Assembly (NCBI GenBank): GCA_016286035.1
Contig: JAEERY010000080.1
Span: 1-64,000 of the forward strand
DNA length: 64,000 bases
Direction: 5' to 3'
From: Lachnospiraceae bacterium
GTDB lineage: Bacteria; Bacillota; Clostridia; Lachnospirales; Lachnospiraceae
Shown here: one piece after another, positions 1 to 1,796 of the stretch
Position numbering within the stretch: the first letter of the stretch is position 1
Layout of the letters: each line of letters opens with the position of its first letter
Program-made: the position numbers and the translations under genes
Notes under the pieces: generated by a model
Told to the model about the DNA's origin: nothing
Databases searched by the model: none
The model's input: the letters and a program-made list of their open reading frames with translations, nothing else

Positions 1-399
1 ACAGGCGACTTCCCTAAATACGGTAACGATGATAACAGAGCTGACGAGATCGCTAAGAACCTCGGTAAGGAGTGCATGACAATGATCAGAAGACATCATA
101 CATACAGAGATGGATTCCCGACAATGTCAGTTCTTACAATTACTTCTAACGTAACATATGGTAAGGCAACAGGTAACACACCTGACGGACGTAAGAAAGG
201 TCAGCCTTTCGCACCCGGTGCTAACCCGATGCACGGACGTGATACTCATGGTGCAGTAGCTTCACTTTCATCTGTATCAAAGCTTCCGTTCAACCATTCA
301 CAGGATGGTATCTCTAACACCTTCACCATCATCCCCGGTGCTCTTGGTAAAGAGGATCAGGTATTCGCAGGTGATATCGAGATAGATCTTAACAAATAA
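1..399 (+). CDS. pflB: Pyruvate formate-lyase core domain, 3' part, lacking the glycyl radical domain
   Basis: The frame is open from base 1, so the gene starts upstream of the window; 132 residues are visible. They match the late core of pyruvate formate-lyase (pyruvate + CoA to acetyl-CoA + formate), including the conserved [20 protein letters not shown] stretch and the [10 protein letters not shown] stretch. In usual PFLs the sequence continues after the '[10 protein letters not shown]'-type segment straight into the glycyl radical domain. Here it ends after a 12-residue tail at two adjacent stop codons (TAA TAG). The radical domain is encoded separately at 667-909 in the same frame, with several stops between. 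The Cys-Cys active site lies outside the window. The family call is certain; that the protein works as a split enzyme is inferred. Confidence 0.93.
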
Positions 400-439
400 T
401 AGAAACAGACACATATTCATGCAGAAAGGAGCGCAAAGT

Positions 440-640
440 ATGGATCAGAAGAGTATGATTGATGATTTGGTAGCACAGCTCGATGCCGGAATGGCCAATG
501 GTGTCGGACATGTAAATGTCGATGTTGATGAGAATCAGACATCTGCCACCAAGGAAGTACAGACGCTGGGTTGCGTGGATTGCTCAAAGAATCCCATGGC
601 TTGCAGCGTTCCGACATTGCATGAAGGTATTGACGATTAA
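440..640 (+). CDS. Small Cys-rich protein resembling the start of a glycyl radical domain
   Basis: A 66-residue protein between the PFL core and the separate glycyl radical domain. AAAGGAG at 425-431 places the start at ATG 440 rather than the upstream ATG 419. Residues 7-29 align without gaps to residues 8-30 of the next protein (9 identities in 23, including L-V, L-D, G, H, N-V and V). The rest differs: no RVSGYA radical loop, but a tail with C45, C48 and C55 (CX2CX6C) in a [12 protein letters not shown] context, ending in TLHEGIDD. I do not recognise it as a named family. Its place in a three-gene run and its partial likeness to the radical domain suggest a PFL accessory protein, for example one that occupies the radical-domain site or binds metal or senses redox. 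Function is unknown. Confidence 0.8.
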
Positions 641-666
641 TCAATTCTAAAAAGGAGGATACGATT

Positions 667-909
667 ATGGCAGCATCAGCAGCACAGGTTAACAACCTTG
701 TATCATTATTAGATGGCTATGCAACAAAGGGTGGACATCACCTTAACGTTAATGTATTGAACAGAGAAACACTTTTGGATGCTCAGGCTCATCCTGAGAA
801 CTATCCTCAGCTTACTATCCGTGTTTCAGGATACGCTGTAAACTTTATCAAGCTTACACCTGAACAGCAGGCAGACGTTATCTCTCGTACATTCCATCAG
901 TCAATCTAA
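667..909 (+). CDS. Stand-alone glycyl radical domain of pyruvate formate-lyase (GrcA/YfiD-like)
   Basis: An 80-residue protein with AAAGGAGG at 651-658 before ATG 667. It consists only of the C-terminal glycyl radical domain of PFL: the GGHHLNVNV stretch (residues 22-30), the [15 protein letters not shown] loop in which Gly55 is the expected radical residue, and the ending [15 protein letters not shown]. coli GrcA/YfiD is a known free radical domain that rescues oxygen-cleaved PFL, but there the main enzyme keeps its own domain. Here the neighbouring core gene ends just before the domain, so this protein probably supplies the only radical domain of that enzyme. PflA, encoded next, would install the radical. 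Domain identity is very secure; the obligate split is an inference from gene structure. Confidence 0.93.
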
Positions 910-933
910 TTGGAATAAGATAACGATTTATAC

Positions 934-968
934 AGGGGTTGGTCTGTTTGACCGACCCTTGTTTTTTT
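934..968 (+). terminator. Rho-independent terminator of the pfl gene run
   Basis: A GC-rich stem, AGGGGTTGGTC against GACCGACCCT (one G-T pair), with a TGTTT loop and then a run of seven T at 962-968. It follows the glycyl radical domain gene by 25 bases and separates it from pflA. The 3' arm also carries the -35 element of the next promoter. Confidence 0.85.
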
Positions 969-1013: not shown

Positions 1014-1796
1014 ATGAAAGGCAGGATACATTCTTTACAAAGTTTCGGAACGGTAGACGGACCCGGAGTAAGATATGTTGTGTTTTTGCAGGGATGCCCC
1101 ATGAGATGCGCATATTGCCATAACCCCGACACCTGGGCTATAGGTGCGGGCGAAGAGTATGATGCCGAATATATCATAGAACAGTATCATAGAAATGAAG
1201 GATTTTATACCGGAGGCGGTATAACGGTAACGGGTGGAGAACCGCTGTTACAGATTGATTTTTTGCTGGAATTGTTCACGCTTTGTAAAAGAGACGGAAT
1301 CCATACTGTTATCGATACGTCTGGTATCACTTATAAGCCTGATAACAAGATCTACAATGAAAAGCTTGATAAACTGATGACCATGACAGATCTCGTCATG
1401 CTTGATATAAAGCATATCGATCCCGAAAAACACATAGATCTTACAGGTCAGCCTAATGACGGGATACTCGCATTTGCGAAATACCTGGAAGAAAAAGACA
1501 TACCGGTATGGATAAGACACGTTGTGGTGCCTGGGATAACCGATGATGATTTTTATCTGGATAAGCTGGGATATTTTATAGGCGGACTTAGAAATCTGAA
1601 AGCACTTGACGTATTGCCTTATCATGATCTGGCCAAGCCCAAATACGAAAACCTTGGTATGGATTACAAATTAAAAGATGTTCCGCCGATGGATAAGCAA
1701 AAGGCGATTGAAAAGAAAAAAGTTATCCTTCAGGGTATAAAGAGGCGCAGAGAAGAAGAAGGGATAGTGACAGACTATAAAGAGCATCATATGTAA
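1014..1796 (+). CDS. pflA: Pyruvate formate-lyase activating enzyme
   Basis: A 260-residue radical SAM activase that uses S-adenosylmethionine and a [4Fe-4S] cluster to place the glycyl radical on PFL. The cluster motif CX3CX2C is C28-C32-C35 (GCPMRCAYCHNPDTW), preceded by the typical FGTVDGPGVRYVVFLQ opening; the SAM-binding GGEP follows in TVTGGEPLLQ. GGAGG before ATG 1014 supports the start. It sits just after the split PFL genes but behind a terminator and with its own promoter. Its substrate here would be the separately encoded radical domain, bound or unbound to the core. Length is near the family norm. Confidence 0.95.
   Translation: MKGRIHSLQSFGTVDGPGVRYVVFLQGCPMRCAYCHNPDTWAIGAGEEYDAEYIIEQYHRNEGFYTGGGITVTGGEPLLQIDFLLELFTLCKRDGIHTVIDTSGITYKPDNKIYNEKLDKLMTMTDLVMLDIKHIDPEKHIDLTGQPNDGILAFAKYLEEKDIPVWIRHVVVPGITDDDFYLDKLGYFIGGLRNLKALDVLPYHDLAKPKYENLGMDYKLKDVPPMDKQKAIEKKKVILQGIKRRREEEGIVTDYKEHHM

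Follow-up and report, generated by a model that had tools for sequence, protein, structure and literature searches.

The window analyzed here, a stretch of 64,000 nucleotides from a Lachnospiraceae bacterium, runs from base 1 of contig C4 onward in an assembly of 95 contigs. It opens inside the gene for the core of pyruvate formate-lyase (PFL), a central fermentation enzyme whose radical domain is the part destroyed by oxygen. The genes that follow encode a small protein (hereafter the middle protein), a free glycyl radical domain (GRD) and the PFL-activating enzyme PflA (Table 1). The middle gene, which lies between the core and the GRD, was absent from the original prediction. A terminator-like hairpin between the GRD and PflA genes suggests that PflA is transcribed apart or via read-through; the count of such hairpins (one found, 1.7 expected in shuffled sequences) is not above chance.

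Table 1. Genes and sequence features at the start of the window
Feature	Position	Strand	Evidence
PFL core gene, 3' end (last 132 aa), TAA TAG end, no cysteine tail	1..399	+	reading frame, profile match
RBS-like AGAAAGGAG ahead of the middle gene	423..431	+	read from the sequence
Middle gene, 66 aa, no radical loop	440..640	+	reading frame, alignment, profile comparison, dN/dS
AAAGGAGG, RBS of the GRD gene	651..658	+	sequence
Free GRD, 80 aa, GrcA3 (NF038360), RVSGYAV loop	667..909	+	reading frame, profiles
Terminator-like hairpin (13 pairs, then a T run), 3' of the GRD gene	932..962	+	hairpin scan
PflA, PFL-activating radical SAM enzyme	1014..1796	+	TIGR02493, 287.2 bits (cut-off 231.75)

The radical domain is not carried on the chain of the core, whose reading frame stops at 397-399, and the GRD is encoded by a gene of its own. 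When the single-chain PFL profile TIGR01255 (744 positions) was compared with the locus, the core piece matched positions 546-665 and the GRD matched 665-743; because the two matches adjoin, the cut between core and GRD is clean, with no gap. Together the pieces cover the end of the profile (546-743) in the window, and whole split cores cover 1-668. Reading frames and profile thus confirm what the original prediction had read here, a core closed by TAA TAG and a separate 80-residue GRD gene, and the GRD indeed has its own AAAGGAGG and RVSGYAV loop. With 158.5 bits against a curated cut-off of 158, the GRD belongs by score to NF038360 (GrcA3), and in a six-frame genome search with the same profile it reached 157.3 bits, just below that cut-off. 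The enzyme itself belongs to PFL by sequence, judged by TIGR01255 and the adjacent pair of active-site cysteines. This pair falls outside the core piece in the window and is kept in all 133 aligned split cores. Whole split cores exceed the TIGR01255 cut-off in 17 of the 19 genomes checked (exceptions: G000, broken by a contig gap, with the single-chain entries of G139 and G030 counted apart).

An assembly break at the start of the window is real, but it falls inside the core and has no part in producing the split. The 5' part of the core is on another contig: an N-terminus matching TIGR01255 positions 2-121 stands at the end of C68, and this end of C68 aligns collinearly with the sequence that runs up to the intact core of a relative, G012 (91.6% over 3604 nt). 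The N-terminal match and the collinearity indicate a single core gene that the assembly has interrupted; its middle, about TIGR01255 positions 122-545, was not found in the window's assembly. A frameshift or assembly error behind the split, the ground on which the original prediction said it could fall, is rejected, as relatives with intact contigs stop the core at the same place and encode the GRD separately. Furthermore, at least 383 relatives of the middle protein occur in genome contigs, and of the best 80 loci among them, 76 place the middle gene between a core on its 5' side and a GRD gene on its 3' side, within 1 kb (the other four are at contig edges), so the split is not a product of chance or of assembly. 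The split is kept across many Lachnospiraceae and in some other families of Clostridia. The two-chain reading of this PFL is therefore well supported, and the enzyme is very probably obligately multi-chain. What the two-chain reading overlooked is the third gene and the cysteine tail described below, which suggest that more than two parts are needed. Cheap exchange of the radical part after damage by oxygen, the advantage proposed in the original prediction, may be a reason for the design.

The free GRD could also be a spare part like GrcA and nothing else, repairing a complete PFL encoded elsewhere, with the tail-less core as a by-product. Its family is named an autonomous cofactor in NCBIfam, and some genomes hold extra GRD genes away from the core. 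Searching the rest of the window's genome, whose assembly is incomplete and breaks within this gene, brought up no full-length PFL, and TIGR01255 matches these pieces alone; the one other match to PF01228 there is marginal and sits in a 734-aa frame on contig C48. The search with PFL profiles covered 19 genomes, seven of them single contigs. In four of the seven (G324, G423, G057 and G089) the split core is the sole PFL match above cut-off, the remaining matches being GRD genes or low-scoring frames of 780-908 aa. In G307, G128 and G338, also single contigs, a full-length PFL of 754-756 aa stands beside the split one, and a full-length PFL is likewise found in G685, an assembly of more than one contig. 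The cell would thus hold a complete PFL to repair in G307, G128, G338 and G685, and none was found in the window's genome or in the four single-contig genomes named first. The original prediction had accepted that a complete PFL elsewhere, with this core inactive, would count against it; a complete PFL is present in three of the single-contig genomes and was not found in the other four or in the window's own. The active site is kept in split cores and the stop position is the same in all split forms seen, which, together with the four genomes lacking any other full-length PFL, makes a role as spare part alone very improbable. GRD genes without a core in the fetched stretch make up 11 of 38 GRD loci (L215, L225, L227, L232, L233, L236, L237, L238, L244, L246 and L247) and are possibly true spare parts. 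An extra free GRD lies about 960 kb from the split PFL of G423.

The middle protein resembles the GRD over part of its length. Residues 2-31 resemble the helix and strand of the GRD (profile comparison with GRDs: probability 91.2%, E = 1e-6), and residues 45-66 form a cysteine tail, CxxCx6CxxPTLxxGxDD. Past residue ~31, where the GRD enters its radical loop, the middle protein enters the cysteine tail instead, and the RVSGYAV glycine loop is absent from it. Compared with Pfam and NCBIfam, the middle protein gave no match reaching cut-off, and no accessory-subunit family was matched. On GrcA3 the window's middle protein shows a weak match over residues 4-34 (E = 0.041), and 14 of 21 relatives also match this profile weakly (best E = 9.7e-5); PF01228 is matched by one of the 21 (E = 0.034). 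Across 60 middle proteins from 60 loci, which represent the window's wider clade, C45, D47, C48, S49, A54, C55, S56, P58, T59 and G63 are invariant. Within the genus, the middle protein of G010 retains two of the three tail cysteines.

The middle gene is under purifying selection. Of 31 same-genus pairs, 24 give it a dN/dS of 0.02-0.15 and seven are saturated or without synonymous change; the values for the GRD are similar (0-0.11 in 15 pairs). A chance reading frame was considered and is rejected by recurrence in relatives, by conserved locus order and by dN/dS. Structure prediction gave poor models, with pLDDT 58.7 and a sole helix at 3-19 for the middle protein (AlphaFold, 60 sequences) and pLDDT 48.3 for the core (42 close sequences). 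A profile search of the PDB returned two weak matches (E = 0.28 and 1.1), which were judged meaningless.

The middle gene is present in 22 of 61 genomes (the window's own and 60 relatives). Among the 397 genomes sampled from the window's family, middle-gene matches at E <= 0.01 were obtained in 168, many of them weak matches to the GRD itself, and matches at E <= 1e-13 occur in at least 99 among the matches listed. GrcA3 is found above cut-off in 128 of the 397 family genomes and in 20 of 391 genomes of the class; three of the above-cut-off GrcA3 matches listed sit in single-chain frames (G294, G139 and G117). Middle-gene loci among the matches listed include those of Lachnospiraceae bacterium COE1, bacterium D16-50 and MAGs named Roseburia and Acetatifactor.

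Loci without the middle gene usually have a cysteine tail of another placement. In the first 20 loci with a free GRD and no middle gene, every core extends past the window-type stop into a C-terminal tail with at least two cysteines. We then counted both elements in a census across all fetched loci, taking one core per distinct last 150 aa. The census comprises 156 distinct split cores. For 94 of them the locus includes the middle gene and the core ends without a two-cysteine tail; 53 bear the cysteine tail themselves, their loci being without a middle gene; nine have neither at the locus, and none has both. The loci are not a random sample, 80 having come from the middle-gene search and most tail loci from the presence of a free GRD with no strong middle-gene match, so that the proportions are not population frequencies; about 27 fetched loci lacking a core were left out. 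The tail status was not used for choosing loci, and the zero count of cores with both elements is not forced by locus choice. Among the matches listed for the genomes of the 53 tail cores, no separate strong middle gene was found, those listed being the GRD or the core's own tail.

The tails themselves are variable. By type, 24 of the 53 fit C-x(2-7)-C-x-[VIAS]-P-[TN]-[LIVM], 15 carry DCAC and 14 are of other kinds. At least two cysteines are present in each by the definition used for counting; 35 tails have two, 17 have three and one has four, spaced from adjacent to several residues apart. At one locus (L280, G636:C3) a tail-type core is spread over two consecutive reading frames (291 and 420 aa), perhaps owing to a sequencing error or a broken gene.

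Among the nine cores with neither element in the locus, four (G021, G173, G324 and G339) have a middle gene elsewhere in the genome, that of G173 being divergent. In G324, a single contig, it lies about 370 kb from the core and GRD. The true middle gene of G021 (L068:4692-4901, G021:C64), away from the core and GRD on contig C11, precedes a gene that by eye is MoxR-like. For the other five, G330 (L216/L254), G587 (L274), G785 (L282), G685 (L283) and G624 (L285), a genome search for the middle gene found none; completeness is 97%, 82%, 99%, 95% and 99%, respectively. The low completeness of G587 and the additional full-length PFL of G685 could excuse these two, and among the excuses tested none applies to G330 and G624. 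The core of L285 stops directly after the SLGKDD motif. These five split cores show that the third element is not strictly required. As far as the sequences tell, however, a split PFL usually has one, either in cis or in trans, and the tail and the middle protein probably do the same job.

The two arrangements have been exchanged repeatedly. On a FastTree tree of 145 cores, built with the tail columns left out, the tail and middle-gene states need at least 10 changes, and the well-supported branches alone force seven for either label. The sister loci L209 and L260 have near-identical tails, in L209 (..ACKVPTLHKGIDDDD) on the core and in L260 on the middle protein. An independent-pairs test yielded six pairs, always changing in opposite directions, which adds nothing to the census count because both states are coded as exclusive. 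Five single-chain PFLs bear on the link between tail and split. Three that are nested in the split clade (G030, G294 and G117) have no tail, and two of the same genus (L251 in G139 and L253 in G435) retain a cysteine-bearing stretch where the core passes into the GRD; the tail thus also occurs outside split enzymes. Judging from these alignments, the tail accompanies the split in nearly all cases, yet it can persist once the chains are joined. One further residue was considered as a partner specific to the split form, the cysteine at core position 429 (L067 numbering), about 22 residues past the active-site pair. All 133 split cores aligned have it, and seven outgroup single chains have A or T in its place; it is also shared by the five nested single chains, so it marks the clade, and the candidate was rejected.

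The split PFL resembles the E. coli pair of PflB and GrcA/YfiD, in which a free GRD activates a PFL body without its own domain (PMC8683613). The difference is that E. coli makes a complete PflB and YfiD is a repair protein whose disordered N-terminus of 60 residues is needed for binding (PMC8683613). In the window-type split PFL, by contrast, the core is made without a GRD, the GRD is made without the extension (TIGR04365 matches the window's GRD from model position 65 on, i.e., the YfiD N-terminus is absent), and a cysteine tail or a middle protein is added. According to the same source, an E. coli core cut at residue 695 and free YfiD showed no detectable binding and a 32-fold lower activation, and once activated they turned over normally (kcat 121-204 per s); the recognition elements it names are core residues 696-733 and the first 60 residues of YfiD (PMC8683613). 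Because the GRD lacks the YfiD N-terminus and the core ends before its own helix and strand, the split PFL lacks both known recognition elements. Something must then replace them, and part of the 696-733 region is what the middle protein resembles.

The best explanation, to which we give an even chance, is a multi-chain PFL whose third element acts as a stand-in at the empty radical site. The core would contribute the active-site cysteine pair and the free 80-aa GRD the radical glycine; PflA would activate the GRD, which would dock into the core in trans. The third element would be kept because core and GRD are not tethered. It would consist of a short tail, usually with two or three cysteines and often of the proline-containing pattern given above, placed at the core C-terminus or, as in the window, on a small protein with a GRD-like first half. 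The middle protein may dock on the core via this half and so bring the tail there, and a tail already on the core would need no dock. The tail could then occupy the empty radical site, preserve it in a receptive state and later yield it to the activated GRD, thereby helping docking and activation. A role in standing in or loading is on its own somewhat less than an even bet. We hold with similar reserve, a shade below even, the fuller picture of a three-element PFL made of a core, an exchangeable GRD and a cysteine tail that guards or loads the empty site, equivalent in cis or on a radical-less mimic and swapped many times. Half-site behavior of PFL has sometimes been proposed; it is argued against in vivo in PMC12338860 and is not relied on here.

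The main rival to the stand-in is a redox or metal role. The tail cysteines might be joined in a disulfide, serve as ligands to a metal or an Fe-S cluster, or pair up with those of the active site upon exposure to oxygen, leaving the core off or the GRD released until conditions are anaerobic again; the middle protein would deliver this switch by mimicking the GRD. The cysteines themselves invite such a reading, as CxxCx6C is kept without exception in the 60 middle proteins aligned from the window's wider clade and all 53 tails have two or more cysteines (by the definition of a tail), and some other glycyl radical enzymes have small Fe-S accessory subunits. However, the spacing is variable, 35 of the 53 tails have two cysteines only, and the middle protein of G010 does without one of its three, all of which ill suits a fixed cluster site. 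On this evidence we consider a redox or metal switch rather unlikely, though ahead of the other alternatives. A shared dock, furthermore, would make the middle protein compete with the GRD, which fits a stand-in and could equally fit an inhibitor. The middle protein would then be a decoy, a radical-less copy of the GRD that throttles PFL as a regulatory subunit, and its GRD-like helix and strand without the glycine loop are what such a copy would be expected to have. Against this, 53 of the 156 cores carry such a tail fused and with no GRD-like part, so that the tail and not the dock is conserved, and the middle gene usually lies between the core and GRD genes in one orientation. A decoy is accordingly doubtful, and clearly less probable than the switch.

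The middle gene and tails could, finally, be relics, remains of a GRD sequence that was duplicated or disrupted, with no function left. Part of the middle protein does derive from a GRD, and five split cores manage without either element. This reading is already disfavored by the low dN/dS, by the invariant cysteines and PT-G motif, and by an either-or distribution with repeated switching, and it ranks as the least probable of those considered, slightly below even the spare part. The stand-in at the radical site remains our preferred reading.

No description of a split PFL or of GrcA3 was found in the open-access literature; one may be in print in subscription papers or preprints. The name of NF038360 (GrcA3) implies a spare part, whereas in the window the domain is the only radical domain of PFL. 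Compared with single-chain TIGR01255 PFL, the enzyme has two or three chains, and the cysteine tail is absent from the ordinary single-chain relatives aligned. The large subunit of benzylsuccinate synthase and of 4-hydroxyphenylacetate decarboxylase keeps its radical domain. In these glycyl radical enzymes, too, a small extra protein is present (e.g., PMC12590467). Unlike their accessory subunits, the middle protein resembles part of the GRD. The tail and the middle protein appear to be unannotated, and their nearly constant presence beside split cores suggests that they are an unrecognised part of PFL.

The free GRD of E. coli is an emergency repair part, whereas in split genomes an untethered GRD is apparently the normal design. 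Delivery, exchange and protection of the radical domain thus become questions that can be asked directly, and a candidate answer to them lies in the tail and middle protein. There is also a consequence for annotation: a core without its GRD resembles a truncated, inactive PFL, and formate production in the gut would be misjudged where it is read as such.

A second middle-like protein was also encountered away from PFL. It has a similar helix-strand half (E = 3.4e-6) and another tail (..GRCDVGSPWAxGT..C..). A pattern search for this second family found none in six further loci. It is encoded at G000:C94:25458-25565 (L080, L289) and at L078:1384-1608, and the L078 gene precedes a gene that by eye resembles a MoxR-type ATPase.
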